A stretch of DNA of 34,920 bases, taken from Flavobacteriales bacterium (lineage in GTDB: Bacteria; Bacteroidota; Bacteroidia; Flavobacteriales_F; PHOS-HE28). The stretch covers positions 1-34,920 of the forward strand of contig JABWBQ010000032.1 of assembly GCA_013360395.1 (NCBI GenBank). The letters run 5' to 3'. The notes under the pieces are model-generated. The model did no database searches and was not told the origin of the DNA. It saw only the letters and a list, made by a program, of their open reading frames with translations. A program made the position numbers and the translations under genes. Below, piece after piece: positions 2,546 through 22,044 of this stretch; the first letter of the stretch is position 1, and each line of letters starts with the position of its first letter.

Positions 2546-3805
2546 TCAGGGCTTCAGCACGAAGCGGGCGGTGGTGCGGCTGCGTTGCTCCAGCAGCACC
2601 TCCTTGCCCGCGGTGAGCGCGCTGAGCGTGGCCTCGTCGTGGTGGCGCACCGTCACCAGCTCGCAACCCTCGTTGTACCGCACCTCATAGCCCTTGCCTA
2701 GCTCGGCGATCAGTTGCCGGCTGCGCGGCGTGTCGTCCACCACCACACTGAAGGCGACCGCGCTGTTCTGCATCAGGTCGATGCGCACGTTGTGCCGGGC
2801 GAAAAGCCAAAAGATGCCGCTGAGGTTCTCCTCCACGATGAAGCTGAGGTCGCGCGGGGTGATGCTGATGAGCAGCTGCTGCGGCTTCACGATGAACGAG
2901 GGCACCAGCGCATCGTTCGCGCCGCGGTCGTCGATGGTGCTGCCCGCTGCGTCCAGGTCCAGGAAGGAACGCACGTACAGCGGGATGTGCTTCTGCTGCA
3001 ACGGTTGCAGGGTGCGCGGATGGATCACGCTCGCGCCGAAGTAGCTGAGCTCGATCGCCTCGCGATAGCTGATGTGCTTAAGGAGCTTGGTATCCGGGAA
3101 GCGTTTCGGATCGGCGTTGAACATGCCGGGCACGTCCTTCCAGATGGTGACGCTTTCCGCGTCGAGCAGCCAGGCGAAGATGGCGGCGCTGAAATCGGAC
3201 CCCTCGCGGCCCAGGGTGGTGCTGCGCCCGTCGGCCGTGCGGCCGATGAAGCCCTGGGTGAGCACCCGTCCCGGATGCGCGTTGAACAGGGGCTTCAGGT
3301 AGCGTATGGCCAGGTTCTCGCAGGCCTGCCACTCCACCTTGGCCGCCCGGAAGCTCGCATCGGTGCGCACCACGGTGCGTGCGTCCAGCCAGGTGTTGGC
3401 GATGCCGGCTTGCTTCAGGTGCGCGCTCACCACCAGGCTGCTCCACATCTCGCCCAGCGACACGATCCGGTCGTACTCCTCGTCCGCCCGGTTGCCCGGG
3501 CGATGGGCCAGTATGCGCTGGAGTTCGCGGAAGGAGGCCTCCAAGGCGCCGACCGCCGCGGCATCGCCGGGGGCGACCTCTTCGAGCACCTCAAGATGCG
3601 CGGTGCGAAGCCCCTCCACCGGGGCCCTGGTATCCCGCCCCGTCCCATGGGCCGACACCACCTCCTCGAGAGCGTTGGTGGTCTTGCCCATGGCGCTCAC
3701 CACGATCAGCAGGTCGTCGTCGGGGAAGTGCGTGAGCACACGCGCCATGTTCCGTACACCGGCCGCGTCCTTCACGCTGGCCCCGCCGAACTTGAAGACT
3801 TTCAT
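2546..3805 (-). CDS. lysC: Aspartate kinase
   Basis: 419 residues, the usual size of a monofunctional aspartokinase. It phosphorylates aspartate, the first step to lysine, threonine, methionine and (in most bacteria) diaminopimelate. The N-terminal KFGGASV motif binds ATP; TTLGREGSDFSAA in the middle is the conserved aspartate/ATP loop of the amino-acid kinase fold. The last about 130 residues contain two ACT-type regulatory segments (LLISITPRDLSFI..., FSVVVDD...), so feedback inhibition by an end product is likely. Start chosen at the ATG directly preceding KVFKFGG. No recognisable TAnnTTTG box lies close upstream; a 69-base gap separates it from the four-helix-bundle gene, from which it could be transcribed. 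In many Bacteroidota, from memory, lysC, a GNAT gene and fbp sit together, as here. Confidence 0.95.
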   Translation of the reverse strand: MKVFKFGGASVKDAAGVRNMARVLTHFPDDDLLIVVSAMGKTTNALEEVVSAHGTGRDTRAPVEGLRTAHLEVLEEVAPGDAAAVGALEASFRELQRILAHRPGNRADEEYDRIVSLGEMWSSLVVSAHLKQAGIANTWLDARTVVRTDASFRAAKVEWQACENLAIRYLKPLFNAHPGRVLTQGFIGRTADGRSTTLGREGSDFSAAIFAWLLDAESVTIWKDVPGMFNADPKRFPDTKLLKHISYREAIELSYFGASVIHPRTLQPLQQKHIPLYVRSFLDLDAAGSTIDDRGANDALVPSFIVKPQQLLISITPRDLSFIVEENLSGIFWLFARHNVRIDLMQNSAVAFSVVVDDTPRSRQLIAELGKGYEVRYNEGCELVTVRHHDEATLSALTAGKEVLLEQRSRTTARFVLKP

Positions 3806-3874
3806 GGTTGAATGCGTCGTGGGTCGGAGATCATCTGAGTCCGCAAGTCCGTCCGCAGCCTGTTGACCAAGCTG

Positions 3875-4237
3875 CTAAAGGAACTTCTTGGGGTTATTGG
3901 CCATGAAGTTGAGCAGGCTTCCCACCTCCTCGGCAAGGCTGTAAAGACCTTCATACTCCTTCTCCGTGATGTACTCGCAGGCAAGTGCAAAGTCCAGCCA
4001 GACCTGTGTCTCGCACAGTTCGGTCTCACAGTCGTTCAGCTTCGCCTCGAAGTACTTCTGCGAGCGACGGCGACGGTAGGCCTCAGCAAGATTCGTTACC
4101 ACCGACCGTGAGCTGCGGCGGATCTGATCCGTCATACTGTATTGCTCCTCCTTCGGGAACTTCTTCGTTCGGTGGAAGATGGCCATCGAAAGCTTGAAGC
4201 CCTTCTGATAGGCGAACAGGTCCTGCACTTTGCCCAT
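3875..4237 (-). CDS. Four-helix-bundle protein of the 23S rRNA intervening-sequence (S23) family
   Basis: 120 residues, the family's normal length. The pattern is diagnostic: LFAYQKGFKLSMAIF near the N-terminus, FPKEEQYSMTDQIRRSSRSV in the first third, NLAEAYRRR, then KFLAKL-like FEAKLNDCETELCETQVWLDFA and a C-terminal helix ending NFMANNPKKF. Members were first found encoded in insertions of 23S rRNA in Leptospira and similar bacteria but are also common as stand-alone genes in Bacteroidota; their function is not established. Here it is stand-alone, with no rRNA sequence around it, and sits between lysC and the GNAT gene next to a tandem-repeat array. Confidence 0.88.
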   Translation of the reverse strand: MGKVQDLFAYQKGFKLSMAIFHRTKKFPKEEQYSMTDQIRRSSRSVVTNLAEAYRRRRSQKYFEAKLNDCETELCETQVWLDFALACEYITEKEYEGLYSLAEEVGSLLNFMANNPKKFL

Positions 4238-4288
4238 GGGTAGTTGTGTTTGTGGTTATCGCGAACCTACCAAGGAACCTGACTCACG

Positions 4289-4392
4289 ACTCAGCAGACT
4301 CACGACTCATCCGACTCCCGACTCAGCGGACTCCCGACTCATCCGACTCCCGACTCATCCGACTCCCAACTCATCCGACTCCCAACTCATCC
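4289..4392. repeat. 16-base tandem repeat array, about 6.5 copies
   Basis: Six tandem 16-base units plus a half unit. The consensus is ACTCATCCGACTCCCG, with variants ACTCAGCAGACTCACG (first unit) and ACTCAGCGGACTCCCG (third); the last two full units end CCCA. Each unit divides into a 9-mer (ACTCATCCG) and a 7-mer (ACTCCCG). There are no spacers, so this is not CRISPR. The array fills the gap between the four-helix-bundle start and the GNAT stop and overlaps the GNAT stop codon. Related 9-base units recur inside the GNAT gene at about 4701-4748. Confidence 0.9.
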
Positions 4393-4926
4393 CCCACTGT
4401 CAACCAACCGCTCCAGTTGCTCCCGCGTCATCCGTCCGTTCACCCATTTCGGGTCGAAGGTCGAGCCCAAGCGCGCATAGAATCGCATGGCATCCGTGTT
4501 CCAATCAAGCACCTGCCAGAGCATGTGGTGGTGCCCCTGCTCCAGCGCGAACGCCGCACAGGCCTTGAACAGCTTCTCCCCCAAACGCCTCCCGCGCGCC
4601 TTCTCCGTCACCACGATGTCCTCCAGGTACAGGCAGCGGCCCCGCCAGGTGGAGTACCGTTCGTAGCAAACCGCCATGCCCAGAAGACCCGATGGGGCTC
4701 CCGGCTCAGCGGACTCAGTGGACTCATTCGACTCCGTGGACTCCCGACCCCTCTCCTCCGCCACCCAGCCCACCCACACCGGCCGCGGACCGAACCCCGC
4801 GTCACGCATGTGCTCCAGCGATACCGTGACCTCTTCCGGCGCACGCTCGAAAAGGGCGAGCTCCCGCACCAGTTCCAGCATGCGCGGCACGTCACGCGCC
4901 TCGGCCTTGCGAACGACGGGGTTCAT
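4387..4926 (-). CDS. GNAT family N-acetyltransferase (spermidine/diamine acetyltransferase-like) with a repeat-encoded insert
   Basis: 179 residues from the ATG at 4926, chosen because the family begins at [14 protein letters not shown] and a promoter-like box lies just upstream; an in-frame extension to 4992 would run into fbp. The acetyl-CoA loop is at residues 101-120 ([20 protein letters not shown]), followed by [19 protein letters not shown], typical of polyamine-acetyltransferase-like GNATs. The substrate cannot be fixed from sequence. Residues about 59-80 ([15 protein letters not shown]) interrupt the strand just before [18 protein letters not shown]; this acidic Ser/Thr/Glu stretch is encoded by 9-base ACTC-type repeats related to the array downstream of the gene, and ordinary family members lack it. 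The gene diverges from fbp with only 34 bases between start codons. Confidence 0.88.
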
Positions 4927-7379: not shown

Positions 7380-7531
7380 GGTCGTGCTGTTTTCCGGTGA
7401 ACCGGTTGCTTGCCGTTGGCAAACGCCGTGCCTGATATTTTCCATGGCAAATATCTGCCGGAAAGTGGAGAATGGCGGGAAGTACTGCCGATCTGGCGGG
7501 GGCAAGTGCCAGGTGCCTTTCTGCAGTGCCC

Positions 7532-7539
7532 TACTTTTG
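7532..7539 (+). promoter_or_regulatory. Putative -7 promoter box for mfd
   Basis: TACTTTTG followed by C matches TAnnTTTG exactly. It lies 59 bases before the chosen mfd ATG, giving a leader of about 50 bases. It is the best promoter candidate in the pirin-mfd gap. Confidence 0.55.
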
Positions 7540-7598
7540 CACGACCCGAACCCGATGCCCGCATAGTGCGGCACCGGGTTTCGGGCTTTTCGGCGTCC

Positions 7599-10500
7599 AT
7601 GACCTCCCTCCCCGACCTCCTTTCCCTCTACCGCACCGATGCGCGTGTCGCACGGATCTCCGACGGCTTGAACGAGCGCGCCGCCCGTGTGCAGATCAGC
7701 GGCACCATCGGCTCGGCACAAGCGCTCATCTCGAATGCGGTGATCGAGCAGCGCGGTGGTGTACATGTGTTCGTGCTCACCGATCGTGAAGAGGCGGCGT
7801 ATTTCCTGAATGATATGGAGGCGTTGAGGAATGCGGGTGGGAGTAGTGAGAAGGGTGAAAGAGGTGAGAAGGGTGAAAGGAGTGAGGAAGGTGAAAGGGG
7901 TGGGAAAGGAAGGAAGGCCCGGGAGCAGGACATGTTCTTCTTCCCCGCGCCGTCACGATCGCCGTACGACCCCGAAGGACACCATGATGGGGAGCGTGTG
8001 AACAGGACCGAGGTGTTGGAGGCATTGATGAAGGTGAATCGTGAATGGCGAATGGCGAATGGTGCGGATGCGCATTCACCAGTCACCAACTCCCATTCAC
8101 CATTCACCAACAAACTCATCCTCATCACCTACCCCGACGCCCTCATCCCCCTCGTGATGGGCAAGGAGGAAATGGCGAAGAACACGCTCACCGTGAAACG
8201 TCACGAGGAGCTGCCGATCGACACGCTGGAGGAATGGTTGCACAGCACCGGCTTCACCCGCGTGGAGTTCGTGTACGAGCCGGGGCAGTTCAGCATACGC
8301 GGTGGCATCGTGGACGTGTTCAGCTACGGCAGCGACAAGCCCTACCGGATCGAGCTGTTTGGCGATACCGTCGAGAGCGTACGCCGCTTCGATCCGCAGG
8401 ACCAGCTCACCGTGGAGTTCCTGGCCGAGGCCGTGATCGTGCCCGATCTGCAGGACGAGGACATCGCGCGGCAGCAGAACTTCTTCGCACAACTACCGGA
8501 GGATGCGGTGCTCTGGCTGCGCGACCTGCAGGCCATCGGCGATGCGGCCAAGAAACAGCTGAAGCTACTGGGTGAGGCCTATGAGAAGCTCACCGACCGC
8601 GACAAGCATCCCACGCCGGAAGAGCTGCTCGCCACGGACACGGACCTGATCAAGGGGACGCTGGGGTTCAGAAAGGTGTTCTGGGGGAGTGCAGTTCACC
8701 ACAGAGGCACAGAGGGCACGGAAAATGCGAAGGGTGAATGGTCAATGGCGAATGGTGAACAGGAGAATGCACGCGACGTATCAGGTCCATTCACCAACTC
8801 CCATTCACCATTCACCAAACCAAGTGAGCAGACACGCACACCAGACCACCATGCTCAGACTTCGGTTGACTTCTCCCTCCGCCCCCAACCCGTCTTTGCC
8901 AAGGAGTTCAAGGTCCTCTCCGGCGACCTGCACAACAAGCAGAACGCGGGCTATACCAACCTCATCGCCTGCAACAGCGCCAAGCAGAGCGAGCGCCTCT
9001 ACGCCATCTTCAACGACATGGAGCATGAGGTGGCCTTCACGCCGCTGGTGCTCGACCTGCACGAGGGCTTCATCGACCCCGAGCTGAAGCTGGCGCTTTA
9101 CACCGACCACCAGATCTTCGAGCGCTACCACCGCTTCCGGCTGAAGGAGGGTTTCCGCAGGAACGCACAGGCCCTCACGCTGAAGGAACTCACCCAGCTG
9201 AAGCCCGGCGACCTGGTGGTGCACATCGACCACGGCGTGGGCGTCTTCAGCGGGCTGGAGAAGATCGATGCCGGCGGATCCATGCAAGAAGCGATCCGCT
9301 TGATCTACCGCGACAACGACGTGCTGTACGTGGGCATCCACAGCCTGCACCGTGTAAGCAAGTACAGCGGCGAGGAAGGTGGCAAGGCACCGAACATCAG
9401 CAAGCTCGGCAGTCCCGCGTGGAAGAACCTGAAGGAGAAGACCAAGGCGAAGGTCAAAGCGTTGGCCTTCGACCTGATCAAGCTCTACGCACAACGCAAG
9501 AGCAAACCGGGCTTCGCCTACCAGCCGGACAACTACCTGCAACATGAGCTGGAGGCCAGCTTCATCTACGAGGACACGCCCGACCAGCTCAAGGCCACGC
9601 AGGACGTGAAGCGCGACATGGAAAAAGCCACGCCCATGGACCGCCTGGTCTGCGGCGACGTGGGTTTCGGCAAGACGGAAGTGGCCATCCGCGCCGCGTT
9701 CAAGGCGGCCTGCGACGGCAAGCAGGTGGCCGTGCTGGTGCCCACCACCATCCTCGCCTTGCAGCACTGGAAGAGTTTCTCGGCGCGCATGAAAGGCCTG
9801 CCCGTGCGTGTGGACTACATCAACCGCTTCCGCACATCCGCGCAGCAGACGCAGATCCTCAAGGACCTCAAGGAAGGCAAGATCGACATCCTCATCGGCA
9901 CGCACCGGCTGGTGAGCAAGGACGTGGTGTGGAAGGACCTCGGCCTGATGATCATCGACGAGGAGCAGAAGTTCGGGGTGAACGTGAAGGATAAGCTGAA
10001 GACCATCCGCGCCAACATCGACACGCTCACGCTCACCGCCACGCCCATCCCGCGCACCCTGCAGTTCAGCCTCATGGGCGCGCGCGACCTCAGCATCATC
10101 AGCACGCCGCCGCCCAACCGCTATCCGGTGAGCACCATGCTGCAACCGTACGACGAGGTGACCATCCGTGGTGCGATCGAATACGAACTCTCGCGCGGTG
10201 GACAGGTGTACTTCCTGCACGACAAGGTGAAGAACATCGAGTTCATCGCCGACATGATCCGCAAGCTGGTGCCCGGTGCGCGCGTCGGCGTGGGCCACGG
10301 TCAGCTCGAAGGCCACAAGCTGGAGGAAGTGATGCTCGATTTCATCGAGGGCAACACCGACGTGCTCGTGTGTACCACCATCGTGGAGAACGGCCTGGAC
10401 ATCCCCAACGCGAACACGATCATCGTGAACGAGGCGCAGAACTTCGGCCTCAGCGATCTGCACCAGCTGCGCGGTCGCGTGGGACGCAGCAACAAGAAGG

Positions 10501-11285
10501 CCTATTGCTACCTGCTCGCACCCAGCCCGCACCTGTTGCCCGACCTCTCGCGCAAGCGCCTGCAGGCCATCGAGCAGTTCAGCGACCTGGGCAGCGGCAT
10601 CCACATCGCCATGAAGGACCTCGACATCCGCGGCGCGGGCGACCTGCTCGGCGCGGAGCAGAGCGGCTTCATCAACGACATCGGCTTCGAGACCTACCAC
10701 AAGATCCTGGAAGAGGCCGTGCGCGAGCTGAAGGACGAGCACTTCAAGGAGCTCTTCGCCGACGCGCAGGACCACTCCCTGGCCCGCGGTTCACGACGCG
10801 ACCAGAGCGACGATTGCATCATCGAGACCGACCTCACCATGCTGATCCCCAACAGCTACGTGAGCGAAACCGCCGAACGCCTCGCGCTCTACCGCCGCCT
10901 GGACGATATCAAGGACGAGGCCGAGCTGCAGAAGTTCTCGGCCGAGGTCACGGATCGTTTCGGCCCCATACCGCCATTGGTGAATGAACTACTGGAAGCG
11001 ATCCGCCTGCGCTGGCTGGGGCAACGCATGGGCCTGGAGAAGATGGTGCTGAAAAAAGGCACGCTCATCGGCACCTTCATCGCGGACCAGAAGCATGGCT
11101 TCTTCGAGAGCGATGCGTTCAACGCCGTGTTACGGGCGGTGCAAGCGCAGCCGAGACGCTTCAAGGTGTACGAGAAGGCGGGGACCTTGCGGATCAGCGT
11201 GCAGGATGTGAAGAACGTGCACGCGGCGAAGGAGGCGATGGAGGGGGTGGTGGGAGGCCCTGTTGTTACTGACGCGATACGTTAG
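7599..11285 (+). CDS. mfd: Transcription-repair coupling factor with three repeat-derived inserts and an altered C-terminus
   Basis: 1228 residues from the ATG before TSLPDLLSLYR; upstream extension is not family-like. Mfd is a DNA translocase that removes stalled RNA polymerase and recruits UvrA. Order seen: UvrB-like N-terminal module (about 1-360), RNA-polymerase-interaction domain (PGDLVVHIDHGVGVF, about 536-590), helicase motor with Walker A GDVGFGKTE (686-694) and DEEQ box (787-790), TRG-type DLHQLRGRVGRS, and a C-terminal D7 domain. Length exceeds the usual (about 1110-1150 in relatives) because of inserts at residues 80-107, 146-171 and about 365-420, all encoded by short-repeat DNA and all outside the motor. 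The last residues GGPVVTDAIR replace the presumed native VGVKAEV, which survives downstream after the HigBA insertion. All motor motifs are intact, so the protein is probably functional. Confidence 0.95.
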   Translation: MTSLPDLLSLYRTDARVARISDGLNERAARVQISGTIGSAQALISNAVIEQRGGVHVFVLTDREEAAYFLNDMEALRNAGGSSEKGERGEKGERSEEGERGGKGRKAREQDMFFFPAPSRSPYDPEGHHDGERVNRTEVLEALMKVNREWRMANGADAHSPVTNSHSPFTNKLILITYPDALIPLVMGKEEMAKNTLTVKRHEELPIDTLEEWLHSTGFTRVEFVYEPGQFSIRGGIVDVFSYGSDKPYRIELFGDTVESVRRFDPQDQLTVEFLAEAVIVPDLQDEDIARQQNFFAQLPEDAVLWLRDLQAIGDAAKKQLKLLGEAYEKLTDRDKHPTPEELLATDTDLIKGTLGFRKVFWGSAVHHRGTEGTENAKGEWSMANGEQENARDVSGPFTNSHSPFTKPSEQTRTPDHHAQTSVDFSLRPQPVFAKEFKVLSGDLHNKQNAGYTNLIACNSAKQSERLYAIFNDMEHEVAFTPLVLDLHEGFIDPELKLALYTDHQIFERYHRFRLKEGFRRNAQALTLKELTQLKPGDLVVHIDHGVGVFSGLEKIDAGGSMQEAIRLIYRDNDVLYVGIHSLHRVSKYSGEEGGKAPNISKLGSPAWKNLKEKTKAKVKALAFDLIKLYAQRKSKPGFAYQPDNYLQHELEASFIYEDTPDQLKATQDVKRDMEKATPMDRLVCGDVGFGKTEVAIRAAFKAACDGKQVAVLVPTTILALQHWKSFSARMKGLPVRVDYINRFRTSAQQTQILKDLKEGKIDILIGTHRLVSKDVVWKDLGLMIIDEEQKFGVNVKDKLKTIRANIDTLTLTATPIPRTLQFSLMGARDLSIISTPPPNRYPVSTMLQPYDEVTIRGAIEYELSRGGQVYFLHDKVKNIEFIADMIRKLVPGARVGVGHGQLEGHKLEEVMLDFIEGNTDVLVCTTIVENGLDIPNANTIIVNEAQNFGLSDLHQLRGRVGRSNKKAYCYLLAPSPHLLPDLSRKRLQAIEQFSDLGSGIHIAMKDLDIRGAGDLLGAEQSGFINDIGFETYHKILEEAVRELKDEHFKELFADAQDHSLARGSRRDQSDDCIIETDLTMLIPNSYVSETAERLALYRRLDDIKDEAELQKFSAEVTDRFGPIPPLVNELLEAIRLRWLGQRMGLEKMVLKKGTLIGTFIADQKHGFFESDAFNAVLRAVQAQPRRFKVYEKAGTLRISVQDVKNVHAAKEAMEGVVGGPVVTDAIR
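7846..7916 (+). repeat. 9-base repeat tract inside mfd
   Basis: 18-base units (two 9-mers, GTGAGAAGG + GTGAAAGGA and variants) start at 7846, 7864, 7882 and 7900. They encode SEKGER / GEKGER / SEEGER / GGKGRK in the mfd frame. The reverse complement of the same 9-mer forms the intergenic array at 21551-21600. Confidence 0.85.
8034..8110 (+). repeat. Palindromic heptamer-repeat element inside mfd (copy 1)
   Basis: The left arm is built of GTGAATG-type heptamers (GTGAATC GTGAATG GCGAATG GCGAATG), the right arm of the reverse complement (CATTCAC CAGTCAC CAACTCC CATTCAC CATTCAC CAA). The element could fold into a long hairpin. It is translated in frame as REWRMANGADAHSPVTNSHSPFTN. Confidence 0.8.
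8695..8820 (+). repeat. Composite repeat insertion inside mfd: CACAGAGG-type tract plus heptamer palindrome (copy 2)
   Basis: Bases 8695-8721 are a TTCACCACAGAGGCACAG-type tract, a sequence style I recognise from intergenic repeats of several environmental bacteria. Bases 8732-8818 are a second heptamer palindrome (GTGAATG GTCAATG GCGAATG ... CATTCAC CAACTCC CATTCAC CATTCAC CAA), sharing its right arm with copy 1. The whole is translated in frame (HHRGTEGTENAKGEW...FTNSHSPFTK). Confidence 0.8.
11091..11254 (+). repeat. Direct repeat, left copy: 3' end of mfd
   Basis: 164 bases matching 11904-12067 at a constant offset of 813 with three mismatches (11180 G/T, 11244 G/A, 11246 G/C) and no gaps. 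The copies flank the HigBA pair. Similarity stops at 11255, just before the higB promoter. Confidence 0.95.
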
Positions 11286-21550: not shown

Positions 21551-21600
21551 ACCCTTCTCACCCTTCTCACCCTTCTCTCCACCCTCACCCTTCTCTCCAC
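21551..21600. repeat. 9-base tandem repeat array
   Basis: Three perfect ACCCTTCTC units (21551-21577), then TCCACCCTC, another ACCCTTCTC and TCCAC. Preceded by two TTTACCC motifs. On the minus strand the unit reads GAGAAGGGT, i.e. the GTGAGAAGG tract found inside mfd. The array ends three bases before the stop codon of the minus-strand lipoprotein gene. Confidence 0.85.
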
Positions 21601-21603
21601 GCC

Positions 21604-22044
21604 TCAGTTGTAGATCCTGAGGATACTGCCGTTGAACGACGTGTTATAGCGCTGCAGGCCCAGTGCGGCGGGGCCCTGGGTGACGCTGCCGTCCATGATC
21701 AGGAAGGCGCTGCCGCAGCAGGTGGTGTCGCGTGCCAGCACCTCGGTATCGTCCACGTGCACGCGGCAGAGCTCGGCGGGTTGGTAGGGGCAGTGGCGGT
21801 CCAGGGCCACGAACTCCTCCAGGCTCTTGCGGTACACGATGATGCCCAGCGAGCCGCCGGTGAGGTAGAGCCAGCCACCCGGCACGGCCAGGTCGTTGTA
21901 GGCCGGGTTGTTCACGTTGATCTGGAAGTCGACCTGGGTGAGCGGCACCCCGCTGTTGTTCTCCTTGCGGCAGCCGGTGCCGCACCACAGCAGGCCCGTA
22001 AGGGCCGCACCGAGGAAGGTACGGTACCACCGGCGCAGGCGCAT
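21604..22044 (-). CDS. Rieske-fold-like lipoprotein lacking canonical [2Fe-2S] ligands
   Basis: 146 residues. It has an N-terminal hydrophobic segment ending CGTGC (Cys25 a possible lipid site), then NVNNPAYNDLAVPGGWLYLTGG, ALDRHCPYQP and CCGSAFLIMDGSVTQGPAALGLQRYNTSFNGSILRIY. The layout (second half CCGSxF...G....GPA...L..Y......L.I) is that of a Rieske domain in which CxH and CxxH have decayed to HCPYQ and TCCGS. Cys85, Cys93, Cys109 and Cys110 remain and might form disulfides or an atypical site. Similar ligand-poor Rieske-like lipoproteins occur in Bacteroidota, from memory; their function is unknown. A perfect promoter box ends 4 bases before the ATG. Confidence 0.7.
   Translation of the reverse strand: MRLRRWYRTFLGAALTGLLWCGTGCRKENNSGVPLTQVDFQINVNNPAYNDLAVPGGWLYLTGGSLGIIVYRKSLEEFVALDRHCPYQPAELCRVHVDDTEVLARDTTCCGSAFLIMDGSVTQGPAALGLQRYNTSFNGSILRIYN

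Follow-up and report, generated by a model that had tools for sequence, protein, structure and literature searches.

A GACTC repeat array at the end of a GNAT gene as a probable arm of a PF05635 gene cassette with gene-less relatives in coding DNA

The GACTC array at the 3′ end of a GNAT acetyltransferase gene in a Flavobacteriales bacterium is probably one arm of a cassette, consisting of arm, PF05635 gene and arm, that lies between the GNAT gene and an AA_kinase gene. The general reading that we favour is a small selfish cassette. It would comprise a short-unit array, a PF05635 gene and a second, usually inverted array, and its arms would also spread without the gene. A repeat in a gene beside the same repeat outside it would be what shows locally of a genus-wide element. 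The window is the whole stretch of 34,920 nucleotides that was analysed (contig C5; JABWBQ010000032.1 of assembly GCA_013360395.1). It belongs to a 3.68-Mb genome of a Bacteroidota lineage in 139 contigs. The features of the window are collected in Table 1.

Table 1. Positions of the cassette, its neighbours and the related repeat tracts in the window
Feature	Position	Strand	Remarks
AA_kinase gene (PF00696), downstream neighbour	2546..3805	-	Profile match; abuts GNAT in 20/40 genomes
Presumed right arm, decayed	3814..3843	.	One GACTC and GACTC-like words, by eye; weak alone
PF05635 (23S_rRNA_IVP / S23) four-helix-bundle gene	3875..4237	-	120 aa; also a bAvd (PF22296) match
Putative left cassette arm (read on the minus strand)	4281..4392	.	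GAGTC units at steps of 7 and 9 bases in alternation; extends over the final GNAT codons and the stop
GNAT acetyltransferase gene (PF00583)	4387..4926	-	Carries the insert in an inter-strand turn
In-gene GNAT repeat tract	4694..4746 (core)	-	Encodes a 17-residue region; one-armed, no hairpin
18-bp (2 × 9) array in mfd	7846..7906	+	GGTGAGAAG type; similar arrays outside genes
mfd site 1 two-armed insert	8029..8109	+	GAATGGN units and inverted CATTCAC units; hairpin
GAATGGT array	8729..8759	+	Part of a larger insert at mfd site 2

The array was characterized by tandem-repeat analysis of the window. It has a period of 16 bp (7+9), with 7.0 copies and 91% matches, in agreement with the 16-base (9+7) period of the original prediction. 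The array had been placed in intergenic DNA downstream of GNAT; it does adjoin the gene, but it begins within the end of GNAT, and its first unit contains the stop codon (TGA, 4387-4389, minus strand). The related tract inside GNAT, with GACTC at 9-base steps, was confirmed by a pattern search of the genome and by shuffles. The 9-step pattern, allowing up to two mismatches, gave three matches in the window against 0.12 expected, and none of 100 shuffles reached three. The pattern GACTC-N2..4-GACTC-N2..4-GACTC was matched 11 times in the 3.68-Mb genome, nine times in the array and twice in the GNAT gene, with no match elsewhere in the genome and 0 for the backward-read control. Because this three-unit pattern is confined to the two places genome-wide, the array and the tract are related, and a chance likeness was rejected on these counts and shuffles. 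A genome-wide GACTC family in this genome was rejected as well, since the array and the GNAT tract are its only two places. Across the genus, GACTC-type arrays were present in 14 of 45 genomes, this one included.

The GNAT tract had been described as built of 9-base units only and as spanning about 4701-4748. Its steps are in fact 9, 9, 9, 9 and 7 in this genome (G000) and 7, 9, 9, 9, 9 and 7 in the nearest relative (G005), and the span given started eight bases too late. The 53-nt core is identical in the two genomes, although elsewhere in the gene they differ at 79 of 474 sites (Fisher p = 1.6 × 10−4, in a test picked post hoc, with the sequences already seen). Such identity fits recent copying, homogenisation or constraint alike. 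The tract is probably a one-armed, gene-less copy seeded from the adjoining cassette.

The junction between GNAT and the AA_kinase gene, which we take from its sequence to be aspartokinase (lysC), was compared by eye among the genomes. An empty junction, with the GNAT stop running into the AA_kinase start, was seen in 20 of 40 genomes, and a filled one, with an array, a PF05635 gene and a second array, in four (G000, G005, G041 and G027). The lysC positions in G004, G006, G017 and G042 were ignored as apparent false matches, and 13 bases beyond the GNAT stop were covered in G014. Both inverted arms are clear in G027, where the right arm abuts the start of the next gene. The inverted score of the window cassette is 9.5, which equals the control median and is no better than that of control genes. 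In G041 the cassette adjoins a GNAT gene without an insert. The length of the array differs between the close relatives G000 and G005.

The protein encoded by the cassette was identified by profile search. It scored 105.3 bits against PF05635, for which the curated cut-off is 33.8, and 42 bits against the bAvd profile. The predicted model has a pLDDT of 96.2, and its closest solved folds are 2gsc and 2rld of the S23 family. Weaker fold matches were Avd (4dwl, TM 0.79) and a chain of a diversity-generating retroelement (DGR) ribonucleoprotein (8ube, TM 0.77). The solved PF05635 structures are titled as conserved hypothetical or of unknown function.

The GNAT protein, whose nearest named relative comes from the MAG Bacteroidetes bacterium BJ7 (87% identical), was aligned with its relatives, and the alignment bore out the proposed insertion. 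Among the 40 genus genomes with a readable GNAT, the turn has 7 residues in 25, 8 residues in one and 10-39 residues in 14. Seven further relatives from beyond the genus share the short turn in this alignment. The repeat families of the GNAT and mfd inserts were assigned by eye. In the GNAT turn, GAGTC units were found in G000, G005 and G027, GATCAGA units in G021 and G022, AGTTGTC units in G016, G017 and G033, and a GGCCAGT type in G044; G001, G002, G024, G037 and G042 are weaker repeat-like cases. The site therefore took up several unrelated repeat families. The original prediction held that homologues with inserts of unrelated sequence would mark the repeat likeness as chance. Unrelated inserts were indeed found, but many of them belong to further repeat families of this kind, and the likeness is therefore not due to chance. 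In the AlphaFold model of GNAT, residues 61-78 (pLDDT < 50) lie between the strands 52-57 and 81-92. Residues 96-106 form the LYLEDIVV strand, presumably the acetyl-CoA strand as judged from GNAT folds. The insert thus does not immediately precede the acetyl-CoA strand, and the suggested acidic linker was assigned to the wrong strand.

The profile search found PF05635 in 44 of 45 genus genomes and in none of 14 control genomes. The genome of the window has seven PF05635 genes. By eye, each of the other six is likewise flanked on either side by short arrays of its own motif; GGTGAATGG, GTGTTGCG and GGAAAGC are among the motifs of these six. Among the matches listed, 136 PF05635 loci were analysed; about 14 listed places, mostly contig ends or weak matches, were left out, and L012-L015 were taken as the same records as contigs of G005, G044, G041 and G017 and counted once. 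After removal of one locus with short flanks, 135 loci from 42 genomes remained. For each of them, 280 bp upstream were compared with the reverse complement of 310 bp downstream. The median inverted flank score was 18 for the 135 loci. It was 9 for mismatched loci, and a control set of 147 other genes from the window's genome, 27 of them short, gave 9.5. The 95th percentile of the controls was exceeded at 40 of 47 independent sites (collapsed by flank homology) and at five of the seven loci of the window's genome; 28 of the 135 loci were not above it. The self-identity of the flanks peaked at lags 7, 14 and 21, with 0.342, 0.326 and 0.331, compared with 0.277, 0.276 and 0.316 for the controls. 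The motifs of these ~7-bp arrays vary among cassettes. Strong direct similarity of the flanks was observed at 33 of 135 loci, exemplified by the GAGTC cassettes of G033, G042 and G016, and therefore the arms can be direct and are not always inverted. Downstream of one cassette of G016 (L144), about 60 direct GAGTC-type units were seen.

Cassettes tend to sit within transcription units, because both neighbours were co-directional at 71 of 90 classifiable cassette loci and for 61 of 139 control genes, as determined by frame scoring for the cassettes (38 of 128 unclear) and by codon-model gene calls for the controls. The cassette L102 (contig C51) apparently lies between succinate dehydrogenase-like subunit genes and L104 (contig C24) between sulfate-activation genes. 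The arm motif of L102 also occurs at L165, L166, L169 and L176 of other species.

Comparison of the arms showed that their motif tracks the protein family, also where the cassettes lie at unrelated positions in the genome. Between proteins sharing 60% identity or more whose flanks are not homologous, the mean arm similarity was 8.20 against 4.47 after permutation (maximum 4.96 in 1000). With one locus per site, it was 9.23 against 4.69 (maximum 6.70; 35 pairs). The GAGTC clade illustrates this relation. Its seven proteins are 66-94% identical within the clade, and all seven are accompanied by GAGTC-type repeats, at the GNAT-lysC junction in four genomes and elsewhere in three; the next protein outside the clade is 50% identical to the G027 member. 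The motif thus co-varies with the protein, and therefore the arms and the gene travel or descend together. We infer that the protein reads its own arm repeat; the covariation could also be explained by joint descent without recognition. The repeat motif co-varies with the partner protein in RAYTs too, where the REPIN motif fits the single-copy-like partner gene RAYT. Motif-partner covariation as in REPIN/RAYT was thus found for the PF05635 arms.

Gene-less arms were found in the mfd gene (window 7410-11285), which encodes the transcription-repair factor Mfd and carries repeat inserts at three places; relatives are without them or have others. The insert at site 1 has the motif of the L102 cassette of the same genome. 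Site 2 was read in 25 of 30 fetched loci. Inverted-arm inserts, which fall by eye into eight motif families, were found there in nineteen genomes, and G014, G015 and G039 have a 19-residue stretch without arrays; G004, G009 and G022, with other or unclear states, were not counted. A CACAGAGGCACAGAGGGCACAGAG-like run, a further repeat family, lies beside GAATGGT repeats in the window (8689-8760) and at mfd site 2 of G004 and G005. Inserts were counted from 15 (GNAT), 28 (mfd site 1) and 25 (mfd site 2) residues. The repeat family changed on the tree at least 6 times among 34 genomes with clear states for GNAT and at least 11 times among the nineteen for mfd site 2. These conservative counts were made after removal of ambiguous genomes, leaving 34 and 19, respectively, on a quick tree with 10 of 40 inner branches starred; with all labels retained, the changes numbered 10 and 15.

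Folding of the inserts revealed strong hairpins in 9 of 11 hand-picked cases (z from -3.7 to -8.0). No hairpin was found by folding in the GAGTC inserts of GNAT in G000 (z +0.94) and G027 (z -0.45), both of which are one-armed. The inserts were also compared with the cassette arms of their own genome. For 43 inserts the score was 18.49, against 12.80 ± 0.70 for shuffled labels, and none of 2000 shuffles reached it; for only 22 of the 43 was the source genome within the top 3 of 42. Common descent contributes to this match. In the genomes where a GAGTC insert of GNAT lies beside a cassette (G000/G005 and G027), insert and cassette have the motif in common.

The original prediction explained the GNAT tract differently, in that, once a repeat enters a gene, selection would favour a period that keeps the frame (9 in place of 16), and an acidic linker would result. 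That the same repeat is present and arrived in the gene as an insertion holds true, but selection on the period is very improbable. The GNAT tracts of G000 and G005 do consist mostly of 9-base steps. Nevertheless, among 44 in-gene inserts of GNAT and the two mfd sites, the best lag was 7 in 33, 8 in six, 9 in four and 5 in one, and G027 retains 7, with steps of 14, 7 and 7 in a GAGTC insert of the same GNAT turn. Half of the steps of the intergenic array are of 9 bases, as frequent as those of 7. Period-7 arrays lie within mfd (8029-8064, 8073-8109 and 8729-8759), and 18-bp (2 × 9) arrays lie outside genes predicted with a codon-model script in a 317-kb sample (282 kb in 20 stretches and the window), namely at 21551-21606 and at L241:1770-1891. 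These two are of the GGTGAGAAG type, like the array at 7846-7906 in mfd. Period selection as a general rule was ruled out by the lag counts, the G027 steps and the arrays in mfd and outside predicted genes. The frame is preserved through the total length of the insert, not through the length of the unit.

Two further explanations concern the origin of the arms. The arrays might be ordinary repeats grown by slippage, or regulatory sites located at the borders of genes, with the PF05635 genes as passengers or merely regulated. The difference in array length between G000 and G005 is what slippage would give, and the available text of PMC4679880 treats TAACTGA heptamers near start codons of Beggiatoaceae as possible regulator-binding sites. 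We consider this explanation rather improbable, as two inverted arms surround the gene with scores well above those of the 147 controls, the short genes included, the motif tracks the protein at unrelated sites, and two-armed hairpin inserts inside genes show element-like turnover. It is also unlikely, though somewhat conceivable, that a Y1/RAYT-type transposase or some reverse transcriptase moves the arms and cassettes, which would leave the PF05635 protein no more than an accessory role in binding RNA or DNA. Y1_Tnp matches were found in 33 of 45 genus genomes, and the genome of the window has two, one of them above the cut-off; the resemblance of the PF05635 model to Avd and the DGR chain and the bAvd match point in the same direction. 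On the other hand, Y1_Tnp was not found in 12 of 45 genomes, including 5 of the 30 best-quality ones, RVT_1 profile matches were found in 6 of 45 genus genomes and none in the window's own, and in the cassettes inspected by eye the arms enclose the PF05635 gene alone. Neither a Y1 transposase nor a reverse transcriptase is therefore supported as the general mover.

According to the selfish-cassette reading, which we prefer, we infer that the cassette is mobile and would move as one unit. The PF05635 protein would recognise its own arm repeat, in the form of either DNA or a folded transcript. Arms lacking the gene would spread in trans, rather like REPINs relying on RAYT, and copies inside genes would persist only where a loop tolerates the insert and the total length preserves the frame.

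Several known systems resemble the cassettes in part. The 23S rRNA intervening sequence (IVS) of Coxiella burnetii has an S23p ORF with tandem GACAGAT heptamers just upstream, strain-variable in number; in the available text of PMC4990558, this IVS is termed a selfish element and is excised from RNA by RNase III. It shares with our cassettes the PF05635 family protein and the tandem heptamers beside the ORF. The cassettes here, however, lie between or near protein genes, have arrays on both sides and leave gene-less arms in protein genes. Identity with an rRNA IVS was rejected by location, as the window gene lies between GNAT and AA_kinase and not in a 23S rRNA helix. REPIN/RAYT likewise has short dispersed hairpin-forming elements with a motif fitting a partner gene, whereas the partner here is a four-helix bundle instead of a Y1 transposase and the arms are arrays of ~7-bp units. 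The gene within the arms is PF05635, not a Y1 (HUH) transposase, and 12 of 45 genomes gave no Y1_Tnp match; identity with REPIN/RAYT (PMC3116915) was rejected. Rickettsia palindromic elements of ~150 bp form ten families and lie in frame in protein genes (PMC10969869, available text). In-frame insertion of palindromic DNA in protein genes was found here too; as far as that text describes them, the elements differ from the short arrays of many motifs tied to a gene cassette seen here. The Avd protein of diversity-generating retroelements has a similar fold (4dwl and 8ube, as above) and shares the PF22296 match, but the identity is 14% and the genome of the window has no reverse transcriptase match. 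A diversity-generating retroelement was accordingly rejected, with no RVT_1 match in this genome. By analogy, the cassettes appear to work like REPIN/RAYT or Rickettsia palindromic elements, yet by the features tested they are neither REPIN/RAYT nor a DGR nor an rRNA IVS.

Dispersed heptamers are also described elsewhere. The available passages of two papers report TAACTGA repeats in Beggiatoaceae (PMC4679880) and mostly intergenic GGGAATC repeats in Xanthomonas and GGGGA(C/T)T repeats in Nostoc (PMC4692102), with 70 and 75 pairs of GGGAATC in convergent orientation in Xanthomonas. In these passages, heptamer arrays occur in several phyla with no evident mechanism; they resemble ours as heptamer arrays, and differ in that no partner gene is named there. 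We predict that the heptamers of Beggiatoaceae, Xanthomonas and Nostoc are candidates for the same PF05635-linked class. In the literature covered by our search, with most subscription journals and bioRxiv outside its scope, the Coxiella IVS heptamers were the only link found between PF05635, S23 or four-helix-bundle genes and flanking arrays.

We put forward as a tentative, though quite possible, proposal that S23/IVP genes are the missing partners of dispersed ~7-bp repeats in many bacteria. Each protein would recognise its own repeat, the genes with their arrays would form self-spreading cassettes, gene-less arms would invade intergenic and coding DNA, and the motif at a fixed site would be swapped between species. 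The 23S rRNA IVS would then represent a single, specialised form within a much broader group of elements. PF05635 is common in Bacteroidota, yet its solved structures are without an assigned function. Linking it to the arrays would give the protein a testable function, the repeats an origin, and conserved enzymes a source of new disordered loops.

The architecture of the cassette recurs in other Bacteroidota and in plasmids of cyanobacteria and Azospirillum. PF05635 matches were found in 90 of 118 Bacteroidota genomes sampled. At the best-ranked 30 Bacteroidota loci, the median inverted score was 14.25 against 8.9 for shuffled sequences, and 17 of 30 scored at least 14. For 12 of 33 plasmid records with a PF05635 match, eleven cyanobacterial and one from Azospirillum, the median was 23.25 against 8.7, with 9 of 12 at 14 or above. 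Both sets were ranked by match score and are not random, and the null is a single-base shuffle. The flank score found no inverted arms at L327, a locus of a Pseudanabaena galeata plasmid (NZ_CP112878.1). At this locus, a PF05635-like four-helix-bundle gene is placed directly after cas1 and cas2.
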